A DNA stretch of 64,000 nucleotides from an uncultured Bacillota bacterium (GTDB taxonomy: Bacteria; Bacillota_I; Bacilli_A; RF39; UBA660). The notes under the pieces are model-generated. The model was not told the origin of the DNA. It made no database searches and worked only from the letters and a program-made list of their open reading frames with translations. The stretch lies in the NCBI GenBank assembly GCA_900317975.1, contig ONIZ01000001.1:261479-325478 (forward strand), given 5' to 3'. Shown here piece by piece: positions 4,852 through 37,304 of the stretch (its first letter is position 1; the number at the start of each line of letters is the position of its first letter). The position numbers and the translations under genes are program-made.

Positions 4852-5532
4852 ATGAAGAAACTAAATCAGTTTATAACAGAAAAGTTTAGAATATCAAAAG
4901 ATAACTTAAAAAATATGCCTGTTTATAACTATCAACCACAAACAAGAGATGAACTTCGAAAATTAATAAAGAAACTCATTGAAGAAAGGGGTGTTGATGC
5001 GGACTTTAATGATATAGATGTTTGTGCAATTACCGATATGTCAGAAATGTTTTATAATTCAAATTTTAATGGAGACATATCAAAATGGGATGTTAGTAAT
5101 GTTAAATCTATGCGTTGCATGTTTCAAAGTTCTGAATTCACTAAAGACATATCTAATTGGGATGTAAGTAATGTTGTAAATATGACTAGTATGTTTGCTT
5201 GGTCAGAGTTCAATGGGGATATATCTAAATGGGACGTAAGCAATGTTAAGAGTATGTTCAACATGTTTGGAGCTGCTGATTTTAATCAAGATATTTCTAA
5301 ATGGGATGTAAGTAATGTTACAAATATGGAAGAGATGTTTTCTTGGTCAAAGTTTAATAAGGATATATCTAAATGGGATGTAAGTAATGTTGAAAATATG
5401 CGTATGATGTTTGAACATTCAAATTTTAATAGAGATATCTCTAATTGGAATGTTAGCAATGTTAAAGATATGACAGGAATGTTTAGAGAATGTCCGTTAA
5501 AATATAATACACCAGCATGGTATAAAGAATAA
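4852..5532 (+). CDS. BspA-like (DUF285) repeat protein A1, 226 aa
   Basis: Leader MKKLNQFITEKFRISKDN (residues 1-18) is followed by a short helical linker with TRDELRKLIKKLIEERG, an N-cap (DFNDIDVCAITDMSEMF), six 24-residue repeats of the FNGDISKWDVSNV type, and a C-cap ending TPAWYKE. DUF285/BspA repeats are leucine-rich-repeat-like and known from Bacteroidetes and Mycoplasma surface proteins; binding is the usual inferred role. There is no signal peptide. The leader resembles the T4 capsid-targeting sequence. This is the first gene after the array promoter. Confidence 0.9.
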   Translation: MKKLNQFITEKFRISKDNLKNMPVYNYQPQTRDELRKLIKKLIEERGVDADFNDIDVCAITDMSEMFYNSNFNGDISKWDVSNVKSMRCMFQSSEFTKDISNWDVSNVVNMTSMFAWSEFNGDISKWDVSNVKSMFNMFGAADFNQDISKWDVSNVTNMEEMFSWSKFNKDISKWDVSNVENMRMMFEHSNFNRDISNWNVSNVKDMTGMFRECPLKYNTPAWYKE

Positions 5533-5556
5533 ATAAAATAAGTTAATATCTAATAT

Positions 5557-6234
5557 ATGAAGAATTTAAATCAGTTTATAACAGAGAAGTTTAGGCTATC
5601 AAAAGACAATATAACTCATCAATATAATTATCATCCTAAGACAAGAAATGAACTACAAAAATTAATAGATAAACTAATTGAAGAACGAGGAAATGATGCT
5701 GATCTAAATGATATAGATACTTCTGAAATTACTGATATGTCCTTTTTATTTAATAAATCTAATAAATTCAATGGAGATATATCTGGATGGAATGTAAGTC
5801 ATGTTGAGAATATGCAATGTATGTTTGATGAATCTGAATTCAACGGAGATATATCTGAATGGAATGTTAGTAATGTTCAAAATATGGGATGGATGTTTGA
5901 TGAATCAGAATTTAATGGAGATATATCTGGGTGGAATGTTTCAAACGTGAAAAATATGTATAGTATGTTTTCTGAATCACAATTCAATAGAGATATTTCT
6001 AAATGGGATGTAAGTAATGTTAAAAATATGAGTTTTATGTTTTCTAAATCACAATTCAACGGAGATATTTCTAAATGGAATGTAAGCCAAGTAACCAAAA
6101 TGTTTAAAATGTTTGAAAAATCTAAGTTTAATGGAGATATATCTGAATGGGATGTAAGTAAACTTGAAGAAAAATTTGCTATGTTTAGAGAATGTCCATT
6201 AGAAGATAATCCACCAGCATGGTATAAAGAATAA
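5557..6234 (+). CDS. BspA-like (DUF285) repeat protein A2, 225 aa
   Basis: Leader MKNLNQFITEKFRLSKDN, linker with TRNELQKLIDKLIEERG, N-cap DLNDIDTSEITDMSFLF, six repeats and C-cap ENPPAWYKE-type ending (DNPPAWYKE). The sixth repeat is worn (DVSKLEEKFAMF). The variable pairs before MF (QC, GW, YS, SF, FK, FA) differ from those of its neighbours. The gap to A1 is only 24 nt and carries the array's typical spacer. Confidence 0.9.
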   Translation: MKNLNQFITEKFRLSKDNITHQYNYHPKTRNELQKLIDKLIEERGNDADLNDIDTSEITDMSFLFNKSNKFNGDISGWNVSHVENMQCMFDESEFNGDISEWNVSNVQNMGWMFDESEFNGDISGWNVSNVKNMYSMFSESQFNRDISKWDVSNVKNMSFMFSKSQFNGDISKWNVSQVTKMFKMFEKSKFNGDISEWDVSKLEEKFAMFRECPLEDNPPAWYKE

Positions 6235-6260
6235 ATAAAATAAGTTAATATCTAATATAT

Positions 6261-6866
6261 ATGAAGAAATTAAGTACATTTATAACAGAGAAATTCAGAA
6301 TATCAAAAGACAATCTTAAGGGACAAATATATAATTATCATCCAAAAACAAGAGATGAATTAAAAGAATTGGTAAAGAAACTCATTGATGAAAGAGGTAA
6401 TGATGCAGATCTAAATGATATAGATACTTCTAAAATTACCGATATGTCCCATGTATTTTATGGTTCTAGTTTTAATGGGGATATATCTGGATGGGATGTA
6501 AGTAATGTTAAGAATATGGAATGGATGTTTGCTAATTCACAATTTAATGGGGATATATCTAGTTGGAATGTAAGCAATGTTGAAGATATGATTGAAATGT
6601 TTTCTGAATCTAATTTTACTGGAGACATATCACTATGGGATGTAAGCAATGTTAAGTATATGAATTGTATGTTTTTTGATTCCAAATTTAATGGGGATAT
6701 CTCTGAATGGGATGTAAGTAATGTTGTTAATATACGAGAAATGTTTAGACATTCTAAGTTTAATGGAGATATCTCTAAATGGAATGTTAGTAATGTTAAA
6801 GATATGATATTGACATTTGATAGTTCTCCGTTAAAAAATAATCCACCAGCATGGTATAAAAAATAA
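6261..6866 (+). CDS. BspA-like (DUF285) repeat protein A3, 201 aa
   Basis: Leader MKKLSTFITEKFRISKDN, linker TRDELKELVKKLIDERG, N-cap DLNDIDTSKITDMSHVF, five repeats, C-cap NNPPAWYKK. Repeats four and five depart from the usual M-x-x-MF (INIREMF and DMILTF). The start is the ATG directly before the leader; the spacer to A2 ends TAATATATATG. Confidence 0.9.
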   Translation: MKKLSTFITEKFRISKDNLKGQIYNYHPKTRDELKELVKKLIDERGNDADLNDIDTSKITDMSHVFYGSSFNGDISGWDVSNVKNMEWMFANSQFNGDISSWNVSNVEDMIEMFSESNFTGDISLWDVSNVKYMNCMFFDSKFNGDISEWDVSNVVNIREMFRHSKFNGDISKWNVSNVKDMILTFDSSPLKNNPPAWYKK

Positions 6867-6885
6867 CATAAAGTAAAATTTATAT

Positions 6886-7413
6886 ATGAAGAAATTAAAT
6901 CAGTTTATAGTAGAAAAATTTAGACTATCAAAAGACAATCTTAATCAATATAATTATCATCCTAAGAAAAGAGATGAACTAGAAGATTTAATAGATGAAT
7001 TAATTAAAGAAAGAGGTAATAATGCTGATCTAAATGATATAGATACTTCTGAAATTACTGATATGAATAATTTATTTTATGATTCATATTTCAATGGAGA
7101 TATATCTAAATGGGATGTAAGTAATGTTGAAAATATGCAAGCTATGTTTGAAGAATCTAATTTCAATGGAGATATATCTAATTGGGATGTAAGCAATGTA
7201 AAACAGATGTTTGGAATGTTTTTTAATTCTAAATTTAACGGAGATATATCTAAATGGGATGTAAGCAATGTTAAAGATATGAGACAAATGTTTTCTTATT
7301 CTAAATTTAATGGTGATATTTCTAAATGGAATGTAAGTAATGTTGAAGATATGTGGGATATATTTTATAAATGTCCATTAGAAGATAATCCACCAGCATG
7401 GTATAAAAAATAA
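6886..7413 (+). CDS. BspA-like (DUF285) repeat protein A4, 175 aa
   Basis: One of the shortest members: leader MKKLNQFIVEKFRLSKDN, linker with KKRDELEDLIDELIKERG, N-cap, four repeats and C-cap DNPPAWYKK. The leader keeps I-x-E at residues 8-10 with Val at 9. Two long minus-strand open frames here are shadows caused by the repeat and were left out. Confidence 0.9.
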   Translation: MKKLNQFIVEKFRLSKDNLNQYNYHPKKRDELEDLIDELIKERGNNADLNDIDTSEITDMNNLFYDSYFNGDISKWDVSNVENMQAMFEESNFNGDISNWDVSNVKQMFGMFFNSKFNGDISKWDVSNVKDMRQMFSYSKFNGDISKWNVSNVEDMWDIFYKCPLEDNPPAWYKK

Positions 7414-7436
7414 CATAAACTAAATAAAATTTATAC

Positions 7437-8048
7437 ATGAAGAAATTAAATCAATTTATAGTAGAAAAATTTAGACTATCAAAAGACAATCTAAAAAATA
7501 TACATACTTATCACTATCATCCAAAAACAAAAGATGAACTAAAAACATTAATAGATGAATTAATTAAAGAAAGAGATAATAATGCTAATCTTAATGATAT
7601 AGATACATCTGAAATTACTGACATGTCTCGTTTGTTTTATGGTTCTAGTTTTAATGGTGATATTTCTCAATGGGATATAAGCAATGTTGAATATATGAAC
7701 AGTATGTTTTATAAATCTAAATTTAATGGGAACATATCTGATTGGGATGTAAGCAATGTTAAGAATATGGCATATATGTTTTATGAATCTAAATTTAATG
7801 GAGACATATCAAAATGGAATATTAGTAATGTTGAAAATATGTTTGCTACATTTGGAGAGTCTGAATTTAACGGGGATATTTCTAAATGGAATGTAAGTAA
7901 TGTTGAATATATGAAATTTATGTTTCATAATTCTAAATTTAATGGGGATATATCTAATTGGAATGTTAGTAATGTTAAAGATATGGAATACATGTTTACT
8001 GATTGTCCATTAGAAAAGAATCCACCAGCATGGTATAAATATAAGTAA
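7437..8048 (+). CDS. BspA-like (DUF285) repeat protein A5, 203 aa
   Basis: Leader MKKLNQFIVEKFRLSKDN (identical to A4), linker TKDELKTLIDELIKERD, N-cap, five repeats and C-cap KNPPAWYKYK. A shared leader and similar linker suggest that A4 and A5 arose from one another or exchanged their 5' ends. Confidence 0.9.
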   Translation: MKKLNQFIVEKFRLSKDNLKNIHTYHYHPKTKDELKTLIDELIKERDNNANLNDIDTSEITDMSRLFYGSSFNGDISQWDISNVEYMNSMFYKSKFNGNISDWDVSNVKNMAYMFYESKFNGDISKWNISNVENMFATFGESEFNGDISKWNVSNVEYMKFMFHNSKFNGDISNWNVSNVKDMEYMFTDCPLEKNPPAWYKYK

Positions 8049-8057
8049 AATAACATT

Positions 8058-8606
8058 ATGAAAAAACTAAATCAGTTTATAACAGAGAAATTCCGTCTAT
8101 CAAAAGATAATCTTAAAGGACCAATATATAATTATCATCCTAAAACATTAAAAGAATTAAGAAAAATTGTCTATGATAAGGCAAAAAATAATAAGGATGA
8201 TATTTTAGATCTAAATGATATTGATATATCTGAAATTTCTGATCTTGCTTATTTATTTGAAAACATTAAAGTTAAAGCTGTTGATATGAATGGCTGGGAT
8301 GTATCACATGTAACTGATGTTCATGGAATGTTTTGGGATAATAATGTTATTGAAGAAATACATATAGACCAGTGGGATGTAAGTAATATAAAAGATTTTT
8401 ACGGAATGTTCTATTATTGTGATAAGCTGAAAAATATGGATCTAAGTGATTGGAAATTCAAAAATGGTGAAGTACTTACACTAATGTTTGCTGGTTGCGT
8501 TAATCTTGATATATCATTTACAAATAATTGGAAATTTACTGTCCCAATACATGCTGATGATATGTTTAGAGGATGTTCAAACACACCAACATGGTATAAA
8601 AAATAA
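8058..8606 (+). CDS. Divergent BspA-like protein A6, 182 aa
   Basis: The leader (MKKLNQFITEKFRLSKDN) and linker are typical, but the body is not: repeats read MNGWDVSHVTDVHGMF, IDQWDVSNIKDFYGMF and LSDWKFKNGEVLTLMF, with unequal spacing and no FNGDIS frame. The C-cap is reduced to TPTWYKK. It is either an older lineage or a distinct binding specificity kept inside the array. It starts 10 nt after A5. Confidence 0.85.
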   Translation: MKKLNQFITEKFRLSKDNLKGPIYNYHPKTLKELRKIVYDKAKNNKDDILDLNDIDISEISDLAYLFENIKVKAVDMNGWDVSHVTDVHGMFWDNNVIEEIHIDQWDVSNIKDFYGMFYYCDKLKNMDLSDWKFKNGEVLTLMFAGCVNLDISFTNNWKFTVPIHADDMFRGCSNTPTWYKK

Positions 8607-8625
8607 GTTAATATTTAATATATAT

Positions 8626-9381
8626 ATGAAGAAATTAAATCAGTTCATAACAGAGAAATTTCGTTTATCAAAAGACAATCTAACTTATCAGCATCAATAT
8701 AATTATTATCCAAAAACAAGAGATGAATTAATAAAAATAATAGATGAATTAATTAAAGAAAGAGGTAAAAATGCTGATCTTAATGATATAGATACTTCGG
8801 AAATTTCTGATATGCATTATATGTTTCATGGAACAGAATTTAATGGAGACATATCAGAGTGGAATGTAAGTAATGTTGAAGATATGCAAGGTATGTTTAG
8901 TCATGCTGCCTTTAACGGAGACATATCTCAATGGGATGTAAGTAATGTAAAAAAGATGTTTGGTATGTTTGGTGGATCAGATTTCAACCAGGACATATCT
9001 AAATGGAATGTAAGCAATGTGGAAAATATGAATTATATGTTTTCTGGTACCATTTTTAATGGAGATATCTCTAAATGGAATGTTAGTAAGGTTAAAGAGA
9101 TGTGCTATATGTTTGCATTTTCTAAATTCAACGGAGATATATCACAATGGAACGTAAGTAATGTTAAAAATATGAATAATATGTTTTATAAATGTGAAAA
9201 TTTTAAATGTGATTTATCTAAATGGGACGTTAGTAATGTTGAAGATATAAAAGAAATGTTTGCTTATTCTAAATTCAATGGAGACATATCTAAGTGGAAT
9301 GTAAACAAAGTTACAAATATGCATAAAATATTTCATAATTGTCCATTACAAAAAAATCCACCAATATGGTATAAAGAATAA
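8626..9381 (+). CDS. BspA-like (DUF285) repeat protein A7, 251 aa
   Basis: The frame is open further upstream (to 8488), but the true start is the ATG at 8626: it gives the conserved leader MKKLNQFITEKFRLSKDN and leaves the usual 19-nt spacer after A6. It has seven repeats and C-cap KNPPIWYKE. One repeat is 25 residues long (FYKCENFKCDLSKW). The text LTYQHQYNY after the leader also occurs in two array B genes (33014 and 33716), which suggests exchange between the arrays. Confidence 0.9.
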   Translation: MKKLNQFITEKFRLSKDNLTYQHQYNYYPKTRDELIKIIDELIKERGKNADLNDIDTSEISDMHYMFHGTEFNGDISEWNVSNVEDMQGMFSHAAFNGDISQWDVSNVKKMFGMFGGSDFNQDISKWNVSNVENMNYMFSGTIFNGDISKWNVSKVKEMCYMFAFSKFNGDISQWNVSNVKNMNNMFYKCENFKCDLSKWDVSNVEDIKEMFAYSKFNGDISKWNVNKVTNMHKIFHNCPLQKNPPIWYKE

Positions 9382-9400
9382 ATAAAGTTAAAATATATAT

Positions 9401-10150
9401 ATGAAGAAATTAAGTAATTTTATTATTGAGAAATTCAGGCTATCAAAAGATAATCTTGAACCGCATTATCAACCTAAGACAAAAAATGAACTAAAACAAT
9501 TAGTAGATAAATTAATTAAAAAAAGAGGCAATGATGCTGATCTAAATGATATAGATACTTCGGAAATTACTAATATGTCTCAATTATTTAAAGATTCGGA
9601 ATTCAATGGGGATATATCAGAATGGGATGTAAGTAATGTTGAAGATATGTTTGGCATGTTTTTTGATTCCAAATTTAATGGAGATATATCTGGATGGGAT
9701 GTAAGTAAAGTAAAAAATATGAGTCATATGTTTTATGATTCAGATTTCAATGGAGACATATCTAAATGGAATGTAAGTAATGTTACAAATATGAAAAGTA
9801 TGTTTGGCGGTTCTGAATTTGATGGCGATATATCTGAATGGAATGTAAGTAACGTTATTAATATGTATCTTATGTTTTCAGTAAGTAAATATAGTGGAAA
9901 AAATGGAGATATCTCTGAATGGGATGTAAGCAATGTTAAGAATATGGAACGGATGTTTTATAATTCACAATTCAATGGAGACATATCTAGCTGGGATGTA
10001 AGTAATGTTAAGTATATGAATAGCATGTTTAGACAGTCTAAATTCAAGGGAGATATATCTAAATGGGATGTAAGTAATGTTGAACAAATGATTGATATGT
10101 TTCAGGATTGCCCATTAGAAAAAAATCCACCAAAATGGTATAAAGAATAA
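9401..10150 (+). CDS. BspA-like (DUF285) repeat protein A8, 249 aa
   Basis: Leader MKKLSNFIIEKFRLSKDN, linker TKNELKQLVDKLIKKRG, N-cap, seven repeats, C-cap KNPPKWYKE. Between repeats four and five there is a small insertion (VSKYSGKNGDIS) that replaces the usual S-x-FNGDIS junction. Confidence 0.9.
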   Translation: MKKLSNFIIEKFRLSKDNLEPHYQPKTKNELKQLVDKLIKKRGNDADLNDIDTSEITNMSQLFKDSEFNGDISEWDVSNVEDMFGMFFDSKFNGDISGWDVSKVKNMSHMFYDSDFNGDISKWNVSNVTNMKSMFGGSEFDGDISEWNVSNVINMYLMFSVSKYSGKNGDISEWDVSNVKNMERMFYNSQFNGDISSWDVSNVKYMNSMFRQSKFKGDISKWDVSNVEQMIDMFQDCPLEKNPPKWYKE

Positions 10151-10168
10151 ATAAAGTAATATATATAT

Positions 10169-10708
10169 ATGAAGAAATTAAGTAATTTTATTATTGAAAA
10201 GTTTAGGTTATCAAAAGACAATCTTAATCTATATCATTATCAACCAAAGACAAAAAAAGAACTAAAAGAATTAATAAAGAAACTAATTATAGAAAGAGGA
10301 TATGAGGGTGATCTCAATGATATAGATACATCAGAAATAACCGATATGTCTTATTTATTTAATTATAAAGAATTAGTTAATTTTCGTGGAGATATTTCTG
10401 AATGGGATGTAAGTAATGTCAAAGATATGTCATGGATGTTTACATATTCTAAATTTAATGGAGATATATCTAACTGGGATGTAAGCAAAGCTGAAGATAT
10501 GCAATATATGTTTTATGATTCTGAATTTAATGGAGATATATCTCAGTGGGATGTAAGTAATGTTAAAAATTTTGATTGCATGTTTACATGGGCAGAAAAT
10601 TTTAATTGTAATTTAAATAATTGGAAAATAAATAAAAATGCCAGCATGAAAAATATGTTTGATAGTTGCCAATTACAAGATAATCCGCCAGCATGGTATA
10701 AAGAATAA
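10169..10708 (+). CDS. BspA-like (DUF285) repeat protein A9, 179 aa
   Basis: Leader MKKLSNFIIEKFRLSKDN (identical to A8), linker TKKELKELIKKLIIERG, N-cap with a small insertion (NYKELVNFRGDIS), four repeats of which the last is degenerate (FNCNLNNWKINKNASMKNMF), and C-cap DNPPAWYKE. Last BspA-like gene of array A. Confidence 0.9.
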   Translation: MKKLSNFIIEKFRLSKDNLNLYHYQPKTKKELKELIKKLIIERGYEGDLNDIDTSEITDMSYLFNYKELVNFRGDISEWDVSNVKDMSWMFTYSKFNGDISNWDVSKAEDMQYMFYDSEFNGDISQWDVSNVKNFDCMFTWAENFNCNLNNWKINKNASMKNMFDSCQLQDNPPAWYKE

Positions 10709-29914: not shown

Positions 29915-30715
29915 CTATTTTGCCCAAATAGGTAATTGCTTCTTTTGATCAGCGTTCAAAAATAAAATATTACCAAATGCTCCATTTAGTTTACTGCTTG
30001 GAACCTGACTTATATGCCATTTGTCCAAAGATTTGAAACTACCATTATCAATTGCTGTCATACAATTAGCAAACATTGCTTCCATGTCTTTGACTTTTGA
30101 TACATCCCAATTAGAAAGATCACAATCAAATGAACGACAATTATAAAACATAGTTCTCATATTTTTTACATTAGAAACATTCCATTTAGACAAATCAGCA
30201 TTTAATGTTTTATCATGAGCAAACATAGAATTCATTAATGTAACTTTACTTACATCCCAATTCTCTAAACATTTTCCTTCAAATGAAGATCCATAAAACA
30301 TCATACCCATATTTGTCACATTTGATACATCCCATCCAGAAAGATCAGAATCAAATTTAGAACAATGACTAAATAATGCTCTCATATTTGTCACATTTGA
30401 TACATCCCATCCAGAAAGATCAGAATTGAATGATGTACAATTACTAAACATAGAATCCATTGTTGTTACATTACTTACGTCCCATAGTGATATGTCTATA
30501 TTATGAGGATCAAGTCCATAAAACAATAAATTCATATTAGTAATTTTAGATACATCAATATCATTTAGATTAGCATTTTTACCTCTTTCTTTAAGTAATT
30601 CCCTTATCAATTTTTTTAGTTCAAATGTTTGTTCAGGAAAATAATTATAGTCTGGGCTAAGATTGTCTTTTGATATTCTGAATTTCTCTGTAATGAATTG
30701 ATTTAGTTTCTTCAT
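29915..30715 (-). CDS. Divergent BspA-like protein B6, 266 aa
   Basis: Leader MKKLNQFITEKFRISKDN and N-cap (ANLNDIDVSKITNMNLLF) are typical. The repeats differ: about six units of 24-25 residues with S-F-N-S-D-L-S-G-W-D-V-S-N-V-T-N-M in place of FNGDIS and Cys at the S position (SNC, SHC, YNC, ANC). The C-terminus is longer (DKWHISQVPSSKLNGAFGNI, then LPIWAK). Last gene of array B. Confidence 0.88.
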   Translation of the reverse strand: MKKLNQFITEKFRISKDNLSPDYNYFPEQTFELKKLIRELLKERGKNANLNDIDVSKITNMNLLFYGLDPHNIDISLWDVSNVTTMDSMFSNCTSFNSDLSGWDVSNVTNMRALFSHCSKFDSDLSGWDVSNVTNMGMMFYGSSFEGKCLENWDVSKVTLMNSMFAHDKTLNADLSKWNVSNVKNMRTMFYNCRSFDCDLSNWDVSKVKDMEAMFANCMTAIDNGSFKSLDKWHISQVPSSKLNGAFGNILFLNADQKKQLPIWAK

Positions 30716-30741
30716 ATATTAGATTAACTAACTTATTTTAT

Positions 30742-31344
30742 TTATTCTTTATACCATGCAGGAGGATTATTTTCTAATGGTGATCCAAAAAACATTTTAC
30801 ACATATTGCTAACATGTCCTACATTCCATCCAGAAATATCTCCATTAAATTTTGCATCCCAAAACATCCAATACATAGTATAAACTTTACTTGTATCCCA
30901 TTTAGAGATATCTCCATTGAATTCTGATTCTTTAAACATTTTAGCCATTTCTCCAACTTTGCTTACATTCCATTCAGATATGTCTCCGTTAAACTTTGAT
31001 TTGGCAAATAAATAATGCATATTTTCAACATTACTTACATCCCATTTAGATATATCTCCATTAAATTTAGAACAAGCAAACATACCTTCCATATCTGTAA
31101 CATTACTTACATTCCAATCAGAGATATCTCCATCAAAATAAGTATCAGAAAATAAATAAGACATATCGGTTATTTCTGATGTATCTATATCATTAAGATC
31201 AGCATCATTACCTCTTTCTTTAATTAATTTATCTACTATGTTATGTAATTCAAGTTTTGTCTTAGGATGATAATTATAATGATGTTCGAGATTATCTTTA
31301 GATATCCTGAATTTCTCTATAATGAATTGATTTAGTTTCTTCAT
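30742..31344 (-). CDS. BspA-like (DUF285) repeat protein B5, 200 aa
   Basis: Leader MKKLNQFIIEKFRISKDN, linker TKLELHNIVDKLIKERG, N-cap DLNDIDTSEITDMSYLF, five repeats and C-cap NNPPAWYKE. In repeats four and five Asn of DVSNV changes (DTSKVY, NVGHVS), so even frame positions drift. Confidence 0.9.
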   Translation of the reverse strand: MKKLNQFIIEKFRISKDNLEHHYNYHPKTKLELHNIVDKLIKERGNDADLNDIDTSEITDMSYLFSDTYFDGDISDWNVSNVTDMEGMFACSKFNGDISKWDVSNVENMHYLFAKSKFNGDISEWNVSKVGEMAKMFKESEFNGDISKWDTSKVYTMYWMFWDAKFNGDISGWNVGHVSNMCKMFFGSPLENNPPAWYKE

Positions 31345-31352
31345 ATATTATT

Positions 31353-32234
31353 TTACTTATATTTATACCATGCTGGTGGATTCTTTTCTAATGGGGAATA
31401 ATCAAATATATCTTCCATAAATTGAACTTTTTTTACATCCCATTTAGATATATCTCCATTAAATTCTGATCTGTAAAACATATGATACATATCTTCAACA
31501 TTACTTACATCCCATTGAGATATGTCTCCATTAAAATTAGATTTATAAAACAGATTTTCCATATTCTCAACATTACTAACATTCCATTGAGATATATCGC
31601 CATTGAATCTAGAATTAAAAAACATAGCTCTCATATTTGTAACATGACTTACATCCCATTTAGATATATCTCCATTAAACTTGGAATCCCAAAACATTCC
31701 ACTAATATCTTCAACATTACTTACATTCCATTGAGAAATGTCATTATTAAAAATACTATGCATAAACATATTATCCATTTGTTTAACATTACTTACATCC
31801 CATTTTGATATATCTCCATTGAATTTAGAGTTTGTAAACATATATTCCATTCTTTCAACATTACTAACATCCCAGTCAGAGATATCTCCGTCAAATGGTG
31901 AATTAGCAAACATCCATACCATGCTTTCAACATTACTAACATCCCATCCAGAAATGTCACCATTGAATTGTTGTAATTTTGAGTTTCTGCCAAATTTATA
32001 ATGAAATATATCAAACATACTTGTAATATTTGAAGTATCTATATCATTAAGATTAGCATTTGGACCACGTTCTTCAATTAATTTATCTACTAATTTCTCT
32101 AATTCTTGTCTTGTTTCGGGGTGGTATTTATATTGATTAATGTTGTCTTTTGATAGTCGGAATTTCTCTGTTATATACCCATGTAAACGCGGGATCCTTT
32201 CAGCTTCTGAAATATAGTGGTTTAACTTTTTCAT
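31353..32234 (-). CDS. BspA-like (DUF285) repeat protein B4 with doubled leader, 293 aa
   Basis: Longest member in repeat number (eight). The N-terminus carries two leader-like blocks: MKKLNHYISEAERIPRL, then HGYITEKFRLSKDN. The first, YISE-A at residues 7-11, fits the T4 prohead protease rule exactly; the second is the standard array leader. N-cap ANLNDIDTSNITSMFDIF has a short insertion (HYKFGRNSKLQ) before repeat one. C-cap KNPPAWYKYK matches A5. Confidence 0.9.
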   Translation of the reverse strand: MKKLNHYISEAERIPRLHGYITEKFRLSKDNINQYKYHPETRQELEKLVDKLIEERGPNANLNDIDTSNITSMFDIFHYKFGRNSKLQQFNGDISGWDVSNVESMVWMFANSPFDGDISDWDVSNVERMEYMFTNSKFNGDISKWDVSNVKQMDNMFMHSIFNNDISQWNVSNVEDISGMFWDSKFNGDISKWDVSHVTNMRAMFFNSRFNGDISQWNVSNVENMENLFYKSNFNGDISQWDVSNVEDMYHMFYRSEFNGDISKWDVKKVQFMEDIFDYSPLEKNPPAWYKYK

Positions 32235-32252
32235 ATATATTAATTATTAATT

Positions 32253-32993
32253 TTATTTATACCATGCTGGTGTATTTTTTTCTAATGGGGAATTATCAAA
32301 CATATCTCTCATAGTTTTAATATTACTTACATCCCATGCGGATATATCCCCATTAAACTGAGAATCAACAAACATATTTGCCATATTTTCAACATTTGAA
32401 ACATTCCACATAGATATATCTCCATTAAATTGTGATCCATAAAACATACCATCCATATATTTAACTTCACTTACATTCCATTTAGATATATCTCCATTGA
32501 ATTTGGACTTTTCAAACATACCAGTCATACGTTCAACCTTACTTACATTCCATTGAGAAATATCTCCATTAAACTTAGATTTTGTAAACATATATGTAGC
32601 ATATTTAACACTACTTACATCCCATTGAGAAATATCTTGATTAAATTTTGATTCTCTAAACATCCATGACATACTTTCAACATTACTAACATCCCATTTA
32701 AAGATATCTCCGTTAAATTTGGATTTATAAAACATACTATTCATATCTTTAACATTACTTACATCCCAATTAGATATATTACCATTAAAATCAGATTCTT
32801 TAAATAAAAAAGACATATCGGTAATTTCAGAAGTATCTATATCATTTAGATCAGCATCATTCCCACGTTCTTTAATAAGTTTCTTTACTAATTCATCTAG
32901 TTCTCTTATTGTCTTAGGGTGGTATTTATATTGATTAATGCTGTCTTTTGATATCCTAAATTTCTCTGTTATGAATTGATTTAGTGTTTTCAT
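32253..32993 (-). CDS. BspA-like (DUF285) repeat protein B3, 246 aa
   Basis: Leader MKTLNQFITEKFRISKDS, the closest of all to the T4 sequence at residues 1-3 (MKT). Linker TIRELDELVKKLIKERG, N-cap, seven repeats, C-cap KNTPAWYK. Repeat three has DVSSVKYATYMF in place of the usual M-x-x-MF. Confidence 0.9.
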   Translation of the reverse strand: MKTLNQFITEKFRISKDSINQYKYHPKTIRELDELVKKLIKERGNDADLNDIDTSEITDMSFLFKESDFNGNISNWDVSNVKDMNSMFYKSKFNGDIFKWDVSNVESMSWMFRESKFNQDISQWDVSSVKYATYMFTKSKFNGDISQWNVSKVERMTGMFEKSKFNGDISKWNVSEVKYMDGMFYGSQFNGDISMWNVSNVENMANMFVDSQFNGDISAWDVSNIKTMRDMFDNSPLEKNTPAWYK

Positions 32994-33013
32994 ATATATA
33001 TTAATTATTAATT

Positions 33014-33703
33014 TTATTTACACCATTCTCTATACCATTTAGGTGGATTATTTTCTAATGGAGATTCATCAAACATCCATCTCTTCATTATAACATTATT
33101 AACATCCCATTTAGATATATCTTGATTAAAATTACTATGCTGAAACATTCCTTCCATATTTGTAACATTGCTTACATTCCATTTTGATATATCTTGATTG
33201 AATTTAGAACGATAAAACATACTATACATATTCTTAACATTACTTACATCCCATTTAGATATATCGCCATTAAAAATAGCGCCAGCAAACATGTAACGTG
33301 TATTTTCAACATTACTTACATTCCATTCAGAGATGTCTCCATTAAATTGAGAATTTCTAAATAAATTATTCATTTCTTCAACATTACTTACATTCCATTC
33401 AGATATGTCTTGATTAAATGATGAGTCAGAAAACATCCAGTCCATATCTTTAACATTACTAACATCCCATCCAGAAATATCCCCATTAAACTTAGATTTT
33501 TCAAATAAATGAGACATATTAGTAATTTTTGAAGTATCTATATCATTAAGATCAGCATCATTTCCTCGTTCTTCAATCAATTTATTAATTAACTGTTTTA
33601 GTTCATCTCTTGTCTCGGGATGATAATTATATTGATGCTGATAAGTTAGATTGTCTTTTGATAGACGAAATTTCTCTGTTATAAACTGACTTAACTTTTT
33701 CAT
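33014..33703 (-). CDS. BspA-like (DUF285) repeat protein B2, 229 aa
   Basis: Leader MKKLSQFITEKFRLSKDN, then LTYQHQYNYHPETRDELKQL, shared with B1 and A7. Six repeats; the last is diverged (DVNNVIMKRWMF). The C-cap reads NNPPKWYREWCK, with an extra Cys. Confidence 0.9.
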   Translation of the reverse strand: MKKLSQFITEKFRLSKDNLTYQHQYNYHPETRDELKQLINKLIEERGNDADLNDIDTSKITNMSHLFEKSKFNGDISGWDVSNVKDMDWMFSDSSFNQDISEWNVSNVEEMNNLFRNSQFNGDISEWNVSNVENTRYMFAGAIFNGDISKWDVSNVKNMYSMFYRSKFNQDISKWNVSNVTNMEGMFQHSNFNQDISKWDVNNVIMKRWMFDESPLENNPPKWYREWCK

Positions 33704-33715
33704 ATATATTAGATA

Positions 33716-34258
33716 TTAACTTATTTTTTTATACCATTTTGGTGGATTCTTTTCTAATGGACATTGTCTAAACATATCTTGCATATCTTCAACATTACTT
33801 ACATTCCATTTTGATATATCCCCATTAAATGGAGAGTTTTGAAACATTCTTAACATATCTTCAACCTTATTAACATCCCATTTAGAGATATCTCTATTGA
33901 ATTTAGAATCCTTAAACATTCTATGCATATCTTCAACATTACTTACATCCCAATAAGATATGTCTCCGTTAAAGCTTGATAAACGAAACATATCTGTCAT
34001 ATCTTTAACTTTGCTTACATCCCATAAAGATATATCACCACTAAAATCAGATGCAAAAAACATACCAACCATACTTGTAATTTCAGAAGTATCTATATCA
34101 TTAAGATCGGCATTATTACCTCTTTCTTTAATTAATTTTTTTACTAATTCTTCTAGTTCTCTTGCTGTTTTAGGATGATAATTATATTGATGCTGATAAG
34201 TTAGATTGTCTTTTGATAATCTGAATTTCTCTGTTATGAACTGATTTAGTTTCTTCAT
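33716..34258 (-). CDS. BspA-like (DUF285) repeat protein B1, 180 aa
   Basis: First gene of array B after its promoter-like element. Leader MKKLNQFITEKFRLSKDN plus LTYQHQYNYHPK, linker ARELEELVKKLIKERG, N-cap NADLNDIDTSEITSMVGMF, four repeats and C-cap KNPPKWYKKIS. Confidence 0.9.
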   Translation of the reverse strand: MKKLNQFITEKFRLSKDNLTYQHQYNYHPKTARELEELVKKLIKERGNNADLNDIDTSEITSMVGMFFASDFSGDISLWDVSKVKDMTDMFRLSSFNGDISYWDVSNVEDMHRMFKDSKFNRDISKWDVNKVEDMLRMFQNSPFNGDISKWNVSNVEDMQDMFRQCPLEKNPPKWYKKIS

Positions 34259-34281
34259 ATCTTCAATATTATTTTAATATA

Positions 34282-34291
34282 ATTAAAAATA
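34282..34291 (-). promoter_or_regulatory. TATTTTTAAT promoter-like element for array B
   Basis: Exact 10-mer on the minus strand, 23 nt upstream of the B1 ATG; the equivalent element of array A lies 21 nt upstream of A1. Confidence 0.55.
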
Positions 34292-34308
34292 AAAAAGTGA
34301 TGTAAAAC

Positions 34309-34346
34309 ATTGAATAATTCTACAAAATAACTATATTATTAATGTA
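34309..34346 (+). promoter_or_regulatory. Two-box promoter ATTGAAT-N15-CTATATTAT-TAATGTA
   Basis: ATTGAAT (34309-34315), 15-nt spacer, CTATATTAT (34331-34339), TAATGTA, with the ATG of the GC-rich gene 19 nt later. It is back to back with the array B element. Confidence 0.65.
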
Positions 34347-34365
34347 ATAATTAAATTTATAAGTT

Positions 34366-35109
34366 ATGAATATCATCGCTAAGCACAACAAGTTCTACAA
34401 CCTCTACGAGGTTTCAGTTGAAAACATCACATCCAACTACGGATACTCTCAGGACTGGACTTGCTACAAGAAGATCAAGAAGATCTCAATCAGCTTAGAG
34501 AAGGCCCAGGCCAAGTACCCCAATGCAGTCTATAATGCAGATCTGGTCACCAAAGCCGGCAGCTTCCGTATTCCTGACTACTCAACAAGAAAATGGATCG
34601 GTACGGATCGCATCCGCTTCGGTAAGTACTTCGGTACTCTTATTACAGAGATGTTTGACCACAACTATCTTGCTTGGTACTACGAGCAGATTGAAGATGA
34701 TCCCAAACACAAGAGGGTCATTGAAGACTACCTCATTGATCACTGCGGCTACCAGATGAAGTTCATCGGACGCTACGGCTACTTGGTTTCCCCAGAACAG
34801 ATCAGAAAGATGGCGATCACCAATGATACTCGTCCAACAATCATCAAGAAAATTGAGACTAATGAACCAATCCTCTTCACTCCAGAACGCCAGGTCTCAG
34901 CAAATGGAGAATATTCTTTCCATGACATCACCTTCAAATTCCAGGAGACAAGAGGTTACTGTTACGATGGATTTGTTTACTATCTTCCGGTACTGAACGG
35001 TAAGTCAAAGAGAATCAAGAACAAGCTGGTTCAGATCACAAAGTACAACGCAGAGAAAACTGAGGACGGAATCATAATCAATATAGAGGACTTCAAGATT
35101 AATAAATAA
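34366..35109 (+). CDS. GC-rich outlier protein, 247 aa
   Basis: The gene uses C/G-ending codons (AAC, GAC, ATC, CTC, AAG) far more than any neighbour; the contrast is visible by eye. This fits very high expression or recent transfer. RFGKYFGTLITEMFDHNYLAWYYEQIED (about 85-112) resembles the 'FGKYKGxxxxxVPxxYLxWL' motif of DUF3820/ExoX C-terminal-like domains; the rest is unrecognised. It has its own two-box promoter and is separated from neighbours. A highly made early protein is one reading. Confidence 0.75.
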   Translation: MNIIAKHNKFYNLYEVSVENITSNYGYSQDWTCYKKIKKISISLEKAQAKYPNAVYNADLVTKAGSFRIPDYSTRKWIGTDRIRFGKYFGTLITEMFDHNYLAWYYEQIEDDPKHKRVIEDYLIDHCGYQMKFIGRYGYLVSPEQIRKMAITNDTRPTIIKKIETNEPILFTPERQVSANGEYSFHDITFKFQETRGYCYDGFVYYLPVLNGKSKRIKNKLVQITKYNAEKTEDGIIINIEDFKINK

Positions 35110-35279
35110 TTTTTACAAAAATTTCATCATAACTCATCTCTGAAGGCCTCTATTCTGTGGATATATATTTCCATTAAAAAGATAATTGAGATGAGCTCAG
35201 ATGAAAAGAATGGCGTTCTGATGAATATTCTACATAACTTCAATTTAATAAAAGAAATAAACTTAAACTTTGAAAAGAG
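35110..35279. other. 170-nt gap with one possible micro-ORF
   Basis: No promoter or hairpin stands out. At 35191-35283 there is a possible 30-codon frame (MSSDEKNGVLMNILHNFNLI...) whose TGA overlaps the ATG of the next gene (ATGA), which is its only support. Confidence 0.35.
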
Positions 35280-35636
35280 ATGAAATATTTTTATTGTATT
35301 AAGCGAAACGGAAAGAACTACCGAGAAGAGACAAGCAATGAGGTATATCCTGTTGTAGGAGCTGTCTATGCGGCTGAAGATGACAAGTTTCCTGAGTGTG
35401 CTTTGCCTGATGATGAATGGATTGAGATCTCTAAAGAACAATATGAGGAAGCTTTAGAGTATAATGACTATCCATTTGTCTATGATGGTGTACATTGTGT
35501 AGGTTGCTGTAAAGAATGTGCAAAATGCATTGATACATTGACATTCAGGAACAAAACTTATGTAGCTTGTGAAAATGAGACTGAACTAGTAAATAGAGAT
35601 CCATACATATACAGGTCTTGCTGTATCATCAAATGA
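35280..35636 (+). CDS. Cys-rich hypothetical protein, 118 aa
   Basis: The C-terminal half has a dense Cys cluster (GVHCVGCCKECAKCIDTL, then ACENE and RSCCIIK) that may bind zinc or form disulfides. The N-terminal half (YPVVGAVYAAEDDKFPECALPDDEWIEI) is unrecognised. Its stop overlaps the convergent gene at 35629. Confidence 0.75.
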   Translation: MKYFYCIKRNGKNYREETSNEVYPVVGAVYAAEDDKFPECALPDDEWIEISKEQYEEALEYNDYPFVYDGVHCVGCCKECAKCIDTLTFRNKTYVACENETELVNRDPYIYRSCCIIK

Positions 35637-35859
35637 TCTCAAACTTAAGGTTTTTCATATTAGAACCGATGTCTATGACCTTACCTGAAGGTTTTGTCTT
35701 CACTTTCAATACTAGTTCATTATTCTTTATATAATAAGACAAAACTTTGCCATAGACATTAAAATTTGGAAAGAACTCGCAATCACTTGTAAAATGTGAG
35801 TTCTTTCCAATTAGTGTCATTATTATCTGTTTGAATGAATATTTAGATATGTTTTCCAT
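35629..35859 (-). CDS. Hypothetical protein, 76 aa
   Basis: Begins MENISKYSFKQIIMTLIGKN and continues with beta-like text (NVYGKVLSYYIKNNELVLKV). It starts 3 nt after the peptidase stop on the same strand, so it is likely the next gene of that operon. It overlaps the convergent gene's end by 8 nt. Confidence 0.65.
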   Translation of the reverse strand: MENISKYSFKQIIMTLIGKNSHFTSDCEFFPNFNVYGKVLSYYIKNNELVLKVKTKPSGKVIDIGSNMKNLKFEII

Positions 35860-35862
35860 AGT

Positions 35863-36495
35863 CTAATCAATGATTGTCCAGCATTCAAGTATTTTGTCAA
35901 AGTCTTGATATTTGATAATAGCATATCCATTGTTACCATAAGACTTTCCCCAAGAGTTTCTGATGATAAAGCCTTCTTTGTTGTACCCAATGATTGCAAT
36001 AGCATGTCCACCATGATTCTCTTTTCCATTCCAGAACTCTGGTGACTTTCCAGTACTTCTTACAAACATACCACCAATGCATGGGCCGTTCAACAACAAA
36101 GCATGCTTAAGGGCTTGTATTGTCTTCACCATTGCATAACGCTCTATCTTTATGTTCCCTTTGTCAGACATTACGCCATTCTTACGAAGGAAACTTAATG
36201 CTTCTTTGAATGACATACCATTATCACCAGGAATTGATCTTGCTGCATATATCTGTTTCTTGTCAATATGTATTGAACTATATATTCTTGTCTTAGAGTC
36301 AATATTGTAGTTCCAGTCTAAATGTGCAGCAATGGAATATGTAACACACATGTTAGTTGCTCCCTGATTTTCTACTTCTGGCAAGAACTCTATATAGTCA
36401 TAAGATTCTGGAATGTCAAAGTTCTTTATTTCTTTGAATTGCTGTTCTGTACCGTCTAATTTTGAAGGCGCCCATCCATAATTGATTTCTTTCAT
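35863..36495 (-). CDS. Papain-like (C1 family) cysteine peptidase, 210 aa
   Basis: All four papain active-site residues can be placed: Gln44 (oxyanion hole, NQGATNMC), Cys50, His164 (HGGHAIAIIGY) and Asn180 (RNSWG). The Q-to-C spacing of six equals that of papain. It is short for the family and lacks a clear propeptide or signal peptide, so it would act in the cytoplasm or be carried in the virion. The usual CWAF is CVTYS here, which is uncommon. It follows the lipoprotein gene by 3 nt. Substrate unknown. Confidence 0.88.
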   Translation of the reverse strand: MKEINYGWAPSKLDGTEQQFKEIKNFDIPESYDYIEFLPEVENQGATNMCVTYSIAAHLDWNYNIDSKTRIYSSIHIDKKQIYAARSIPGDNGMSFKEALSFLRKNGVMSDKGNIKIERYAMVKTIQALKHALLLNGPCIGGMFVRSTGKSPEFWNGKENHGGHAIAIIGYNKEGFIIRNSWGKSYGNNGYAIIKYQDFDKILECWTIID

Positions 36496-36498
36496 AGA

Positions 36499-36849
36499 TT
36501 ACTTTTTGATTCTTTTTGTTATCTTATATTCGCCTTCATTCTTTTGAACTAATCTATATATATATTCTGTATTTCCTTGATATTTGATGTACATATACTC
36601 CTTGATCTCTGAACCATCATAGCCATCATAAGCATATAACGAATGCCACTTTGCCAGATTGTTACTTATTCTGTCTGCTCTGCATATTGAGTCAAACTGA
36701 GCCTTTGTAAACTCTCTTTCATACTCATTATACATAGACATCCCAAATATCATAGCATCATCTGGAAGCTCTATAAGCTGCTTATGAGAATGACAGGACA
36801 TCAATACAGCTAAGCATAATACAAAAAGGAAATGAATTGTCTTCTTCAT
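36499..36849 (-). CDS. Lipoprotein, 116 aa
   Basis: Signal MKKTIHFLFVLCLAVLM then SC: lipobox LMSC, lipidated Cys at residue 19. The mature part (about 98 residues) includes MYNEYEREFTKAQFDSICRAD and a beta-like C-terminus (KYQGNTEYIYRLVQKNEGEY). First gene of the operon with the peptidase, with a TATTTTTAAC element 41 nt upstream. Phage lipoproteins often block superinfection; here that is speculation. Confidence 0.75.
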   Translation of the reverse strand: MKKTIHFLFVLCLAVLMSCHSHKQLIELPDDAMIFGMSMYNEYEREFTKAQFDSICRADRISNNLAKWHSLYAYDGYDGSEIKEYMYIKYQGNTEYIYRLVQKNEGEYKITKRIKK

Positions 36850-36890
36850 ATCTTTAACTACTAATATATTGTTATGTTATATATTATATA

Positions 36891-36900
36891 GTTAAAAATA
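36891..36900 (-). promoter_or_regulatory. TATTTTTAAC promoter-like element
   Basis: Nine of ten bases match the TATTTTTAAT element; 41 nt upstream of the lipoprotein ATG, minus strand. Confidence 0.4.
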
Positions 36901-36905
36901 AATTC

Positions 36906-37304
36906 TTAAGGCTGATATATTATTCCATTGATAGTGAAGTAGGGAGTCTCAATACCTTGTCCTATAAGATCAGTATAAGATATCTCTTGAAGATTCTCTA
37001 GTTCATACCCAATTTTCTTAAGATCTGACTTGAATGACTCAATAGCTTCTGTCTTATCTTCAGTAATAGCATACAATACTACAATATCATCATTGATAAG
37101 TCTGTATAATGTGAATGACAATGGGATCCCTTCATAGATATATGTGTTCTTGAATTGTGTGGCAAAAGCTAAGAATTCATTGACGGTCATTTTCTTGTCT
37201 AATTCTTCTAACAGCTTCATATTGCTTTCAATCTTGTTCTTAGCAATCACAAAGCTTTCTATGTCTTCATTGAATTTTGATATGTCACAATAATAAGTCT
37301 TCAT
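36906..37304 (-). CDS. Hypothetical protein, 132 aa
   Basis: Alpha-beta protein with MKTYYCDISKFNEDIESFVI at the start and GQGIETPYFTINGIIYQP at the end. No family recognised. It has its own exact TATTTTTAAT element 26 nt upstream and is followed by the next promoter region. Confidence 0.75.
   Translation of the reverse strand: MKTYYCDISKFNEDIESFVIAKNKIESNMKLLEELDKKMTVNEFLAFATQFKNTYIYEGIPLSFTLYRLINDDIVVLYAITEDKTEAIESFKSDLKKIGYELENLQEISYTDLIGQGIETPYFTINGIIYQP

Follow-up and report, generated by a model that had tools for sequence, protein, structure and literature searches.

A codon-anomalous gene of a huge T4-like phage and its candidate origin as a xenologous copy

The gene at positions 34366–35109 of the window, by which we mean the whole stretch of 64,000 nucleotides analysed here, has the most unusual synonymous codon usage of the phage contig to which it belongs. 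It is a member of a phage protein family and is preceded by a promoter-like motif that is common to its clade, and we lean towards reading it as a xenologous copy that came from a GC-richer related phage and is placed behind the clade's own promoter.

The window belongs to a contig of 410,106 bases and 422 ORFs (G000:C82, hereafter C82), on which the gene starts at C82:295844. To judge from its predicted genes, C82 is a huge T4-like phage, with a gp23-type capsid, homologues of the portal, terminase, tail sheath and gyrase of phage PTm1, and, near both contig ends, a tmRNA (tag GDNFEYRMAA) and 32 tRNA genes, one of them undetermined; the 64-kb window itself holds no tRNA or tmRNA gene. C82 was binned in a 1.9-Mb low-GC, Bacillota-like MAG (G000). 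This MAG was ruled out as the host by its Shine-Dalgarno-like sites, found for 58 of 85 ORFs in a sample of nine MAG contigs (three appeared masked and yielded no ORF) vs 21 of 422 phage ORFs. The scarcity of such sites in the phage and its kinship to Tenacibaculum phages suggest that the host is likely a member of Bacteroidota and that the binning is wrong. C82 also carries a large repeated set of DUF285-type genes: a single DUF285-type protein from a relative matches 46 of the 422 ORFs, and such genes lie at window positions 4852–10708, 29915–34258, and elsewhere on the contig.

Table 1. Coordinates of the features discussed, numbered from the first letter of the window.
Feature	Position	Strand	Basis or remark
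Two-box promoter-like motif (TTGAAT 34310–34315, CTATATT 34331–34337)	34310..34337	+	Common to 38 other C82 ORFs and to clade homologues
247-aa ORF with anomalous synonymous codons	34366..35109	+	Member of the FGKY/KRIKNK phage protein family; composition and homologues
FGKY...YLAWYYEQ segment, residues 85–108	34618..34689	+	ExoX-C/DUF3820-like motif
C-terminal domain, residues 154–247, modelled as OB-like (KRIKNK at 35008–35025)	34825..35106	+	AlphaFold2 model, conserved columns
Five next ORFs (118-aa, 76-aa, papain-like peptidase, lipoprotein-like, 132-aa)	35280..37304		GC3 mildly raised, mean 0.335

Codon composition of the gene

The first-pass annotation had singled the gene out for a strikingly different composition with many C-ending codons, and the counts bear this out. 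The boundaries of the ORF are exact, from an ATG at 34366 to a TAA that ends at 35109, and its GC3 of 0.587 (C3 0.38) ranks first among the 422 ORFs of the contig (mean 0.22, sd 0.066), followed by a 93-aa ORF at 0.44. The 78 ORFs of the window have the same mean GC3 of 0.22 (sd 0.078), and codon divergence within the window is 0.694 for the gene vs 0.379 for the runner-up. Redrawing its synonymous codons from the table of the phage gave a GC3 of 0.195 ± 0.023 with a maximum of 0.271 in 2000 draws, and redrawing them from capsid and sheath gave 0.257 with a maximum of 0.332. The C-ending codons include ATC (19/28), TAC (18/22), AAC (8/16), GAC (7/14), and CTC (3/11). The shift is limited to the ORF, as GC is 0.14 at 34261–34380 and about 0.39–0.52 across most of the gene. 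GC1 (0.40) and GC2 (0.30) look native, which is weak as a test because most family members look native at these positions whatever the GC of their contig. In its composition the gene is unlike its recipient, as would be expected of a recent acquisition.

Downstream, the mildly raised mean GC3 of the five next ORFs was reached by 62 of 2000 shuffles, and these ORFs possibly form an islet. The papain-like peptidase in this stretch (35863–36849; PF00112, E 3e-10) is adjoined by the lipoprotein-like ORF, which has a Cys after a signal-like segment. A hairpin at about 35122–35206 lies in a stretch that scores z −1.7, which is not significant.

The capsid and sheath genes reveal the late optimum of the phage: GCT, GGT, CGT, TCT, and GAA are raised, and GC3 at four-fold sites is 0.02–0.04. 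The gene runs in the opposite direction, with a TAC share of 0.82 and a preference for CAC, CGC, CTC/CTG, and GAG. A highly expressed gene of this phage should use the codons of capsid and sheath, and this one does not, so that expression alone is not sufficient to account for its composition.

A two-box promoter motif and a phage protein family

CTATATT is found in 40 of 207 upstream regions of the phage, where 6.1 would be expected. When these sites are aligned, a second, TTGAATTTTT-like box appears about 13–21 bases upstream, and the full recurrent motif is TTGAATTTTT...CTATATTA..A.TGTAATTAA. A stricter two-box pattern precedes 39 of the 422 ORFs, the gene included. The gene had been credited with a private two-box promoter; the two boxes are real, and they are shared with these ORFs and with all clade copies of the family. 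A generic sigma-70 scan returned 8 sites against 4.5 ± 2.0 expected, and the promoter of the gene would not stand out in it. The two-box motif marks codon-biased genes on C82. Mean GC3 is 0.26 in the 38 other ORFs of the promoter class vs 0.215 in the 383 ORFs without the motif (p=2e-4), and the bias lies mainly in AAG/CAG/GAG (0.388 vs 0.268, p=3e-5), whereas four-fold sites show no shift (0.116 vs 0.110, p=0.25).

Within the clade the motif stands upstream of all ten family genes (L096, L080, L097, L098, L099, L100 twice, L101, L076, and L077); one copy has CTATTTT and two have ATGAAT as first box. The L142 family gene, beyond these ten, has it as well, and outside the clade it was found upstream of none of 12 family genes. 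Near the helicase described below, L100 has a tandem pair of family genes (5986–6741 and 7297–8058), each with its own two-box motif.

A tblastn search of 50,697 phage records found homologues of the protein only in the Tenacibaculum phages PTm1, PTm5, and pT24. Among 29 records related by portal protein, many of which are fragments, two hold a homologue, and IMG/VR scans with growing alignments gave at least 14 loci, then 13 and 25, with overlap between the sets, the last two counts including the window's own contig. Scans of bacterial genome contigs turned up no relative, and with it no host or prophage copy, and a plasmid collection gave weak matches only (best E 0.5). A narrow literature search found no description of the family or of the promoter class for this phage group, and nothing on ExoX-like proteins in phage. 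The protein is homologous to the family over its full length and shares its motifs (alignments A3 and A5). Family-wide features are an N-terminal IGFANKFYTLW-like part, which is missing at the annotated start of pT24, the FGKY...D..YL.W motif, present in our protein as FGKYFGTLITEMFDHNYLAWYY (residues 85–106), and a C-terminal YxLPxxNGKxKRIKNK; GKY (86–88), D98, Y101, W104, Y205, P208, and K218 are invariant in A5.

A partial FGKY-x-G...YLAWY motif had been taken as a hint of a DUF3820-like domain. For the protein by itself the score falls under the curated cut-off of PF12843 (13.4 bits vs 22, E=0.073), a profile named QSregVF_b and formerly DUF3820, and PF20600 (ExoX-like_C) does not list it. 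The hint fares better in the family, where at E<=1 the listing includes ExoX-like_C in 6 and PF12843 in 5 of the 17 members (best E 5.6e-5), all scores seen being below curated cut-offs (for PF20600, 22.9 vs 26.5 bits in the best member). An AlphaFold2 model (pLDDT 92.5, pTM 0.59) is confident locally. Residues 154–247 compared with OB folds by VIA-align gave a best Z of 6.4 (80 residues, rmsd 3.3), which is lower than the caution level of 8, and the tool warns that a Z of about 6 may reflect merely a common arrangement. A profile search of PDB gave nothing at E<=1. Foldseek against PDB gave none of 244 matches at E<=0.001, all rows having E>0.1, and the PDB names returned (E >=0.15, query-normalised TM-scores of about 0.1–0.2) were taken as chance; against viral models it gave three matches at E<=0.001, namely the pT24 homologue, M1PL11, and an ExoX-C-like protein of Myoviridae sp. 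ctgsk7. The ExoX-C-like motif, the OB-like domain, and the helicase linkage in relatives together suggest a probable role for the protein as a small nucleic-acid-associated accessory factor.

Position, divergence, and the origin of the composition

In seven relative records, holding six distinct genes, the family gene lies near a DEAD-box helicase (L096, L080, L097, L098, L099, L100, and L142; L097 and L098 encode the same protein). In PTm1 the two are about 21 kb apart, and at three further loci (L101, L076, and L077) the family gene has other neighbours; a linkage in pT24 was rejected, since the helicase there is merely 19% identical. The C82 orthologue of the linked helicase is at C82:203285–206893. 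The gene studied here sits about 89 kb past it, with an array of DUF285 genes on one side and large tail-fibre-like genes on the other, and whole-genome searches found no second family copy on C82. The helicase of our phage is 60–62% identical to those of the relatives, which are 69–96% identical among themselves; for the family protein the corresponding values are 36–41% and 59–78%. Other genes common to C82 and two relatives (G009 and G013) reach 55–73% identity in places and go down to about 27%. The gene is unlike its relatives in both position and divergence.

GC-richer phages exist in the same lineage. Portal loci with GC >=0.38 make up 5 of the 26 measured (L043, L057, L063, L065, and L068), GC values of 0.39–0.47 are attained by relatives within this portal lineage, and the L063 portal has a GC3 of 0.66. 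Codon tables of GC-richer contigs, from portal-lineage relatives and a 40%-GC contig, fit the gene better (per codon, G023 −1.05, L103 −1.06, G003 −1.12) than those of its own phage (whole phage −1.44, capsid and sheath −1.37, promoter class −1.29).

The recent acquisition proposed in the first-pass annotation thus gains support from non-synteny, excess divergence, and a composition like that of GC-richer phages, while the homologue search, which did uncover the family, brought no close donor in viral or genome scans (best identity 41%). On our preferred reading, the family gene of this huge-phage clade is one that has the two-box motif in front of it and a moderate codon bias, suggestive of early or strong expression. 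In the linked relatives its site is beside the helicase, whereas the window copy, far more divergent than the helicase, lies elsewhere. The donor would be a related phage of about 40–45% GC, in which such third positions, C-ending above all, are native, and mutation would have yet to pull them to the composition of the recipient. Several points speak against a transfer. The promoter motif and the AT-rich upstream region are the clade's own, so that the gene would have had to come from inside the clade or be captured exactly at the ORF. The AAG/GAG/CAG part of the bias is common to clade homologues, no donor table fits better than a GC-only model with GC3 of about 0.6 (−1.038), the family is scarce among the portal relatives, and the long branch of the window copy could be fast evolution.

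A serious alternative, which we consider less probable, is selection in place: an immediate-early gene under very strong expression, whose codons follow host tRNAs since its translation precedes the phage's own tRNAs, and which would mark the far end of a trend seen across the family. The motif in every clade copy, the promoter-class bias, whose pattern (GAG, CAG) differs from that of the late capsid and sheath genes, and the tRNA and tmRNA genes of the phage all speak for it. So do the clade homologues, which are biased in the same direction: pooled (8 genes, 1,991 codons), their codon shift from neighbours correlates with that of our gene (0.73), and family gene GC3 exceeds the neighbour mean in 8 of the 8 clade loci having that mean. 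R2G (the fraction of Lys, Gln, and Glu codons that end in G) is 0.50 vs 0.24 in neighbours, Y2C (for two-fold boxes and Ile, the fraction of codons ending in C out of those ending in C or T) 0.24 vs 0.12, and the four-fold value 0.13 vs 0.07. The family therefore appears codon-selected, and this milder bias (AAG, CAG, GAG) is consistent with strong expression. A correlation of 0.70 with the promHi group was discarded as circular, the group having been picked by GC3. Homologues of ordinary composition, which the first-pass annotation had regarded as adverse to its interpretation, do occur among distant relatives (GC3 0.16 in PTm1, 0.23 in pT24, 0.12 and 0.08 in L083 and L084) but not among the nearest ones; that all homologues are ordinary was dropped, as clade copies show codon bias and the two-box motif.

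The suggestion of very high expression is thus favoured by a shared strong-looking promoter motif and by biased promoter-class genes and clade homologues, but the capsid and sheath optimum is unused. At four-fold sites the gene has a GC3 of 0.37, vs 0.116 in the promoter class and 0.02 in capsid, and no other promoter-class gene comes close overall (the next has GC3 0.44). It exceeds the promoter class in CTC+CTG (p=4e-5) and TAC (p=1e-13), it lacks the T-ending preferences of clade homologues (CCT 1/8 vs 0.76, p=3e-4; CTT p=0.02), and its Y2C of 0.69 comes on top of the family's AAG/CAG/GAG bias. GGA, AGA, TCA, ACA, and CCA are still frequent in it, and the usual codon sets of highly expressed genes differ from these. 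Codon usage layered by expression time, with our gene as the immediate-early extreme, is a somewhat more doubtful generalization. Two-box genes would then, though we hold it rather unlikely, be tuned to the host tRNA pool (AAG, CAG, GAG, and C-ending codons in the extreme gene), and late genes, with equal reserve, to a different pool, of which the phage's own tRNAs form part. Codon differences between early and late phage genes have been reported before (PMC5683454), and the phenomenon as such is not new.

Vertical inheritance of a fast-evolving orthologue, relocated within the genome and drifted in composition by local mutation, seems improbable. In the tree the window copy does fall together with the clade copies and L143 (support 93/90, not starred), and it retains the clade promoter motif, but no neighbouring region is alike, as seen from the five following ORFs and from the preceding one (GC3 0.19). 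That an assembly chimera inserted a GC-rich gene into the contig is scarcely credible, for although the locus is known from one assembly only (IMG/VR record 2799112330_000002, which equals the contig in length and carries an identical copy, is counted as the same), the GC changes fall at the ORF ends and the ORF is complete, with the promoter motif of the phage in front of it.

The case shows how misleading codon composition by itself can be, since one outlier fits both high expression and transfer, and separating the two begins only with the late and promoter-class genes of the phage together with its relatives. The analysis also assembles a family of phage proteins labelled 'hypothetical' in the named records matched, and the motif marking 39 ORFs of a 410-kb phage could guide first expression experiments on the group.

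Comparison with known systems

The family resembles PF20600 and PF12843 in the FGKY...YL.W motif and differs from them in that the motif covers less than 30 of about 247 residues and no exonuclease domain is listed. PHROG 3628, of unknown function, lists 14 of the 17 family members at E<=1 (best 2e-10) but not the window protein itself. The closest parallel in codon composition is a family member on a 673-kb contig (L143, IMGVR_UViG_3300021431_000075), where the locus has 40.5% GC. With GC3 0.57, Y2C 0.58, R2G 0.76, and a four-fold value of 0.44 it nearly equals the window copy, at 33% identity, and in contrast to that copy its composition is ordinary at its home locus (neighbour mean GC3 0.51); it has no two-box motif within 90 upstream bases. 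Among named phages, PTm1 ORF-148 (BBI90540.1) and pT24 BPT24_039 (BAX25549.1) are hypothetical proteins of similar length, 29% identical to the window protein (E 1e-8 and 5e-7), with homology that takes in the FGKY and KRIKNK parts. Unlike the gene studied here, theirs are ordinary in GC3 and have no two-box motif upstream, while many core genes of PTm1 are also related to those of C82.
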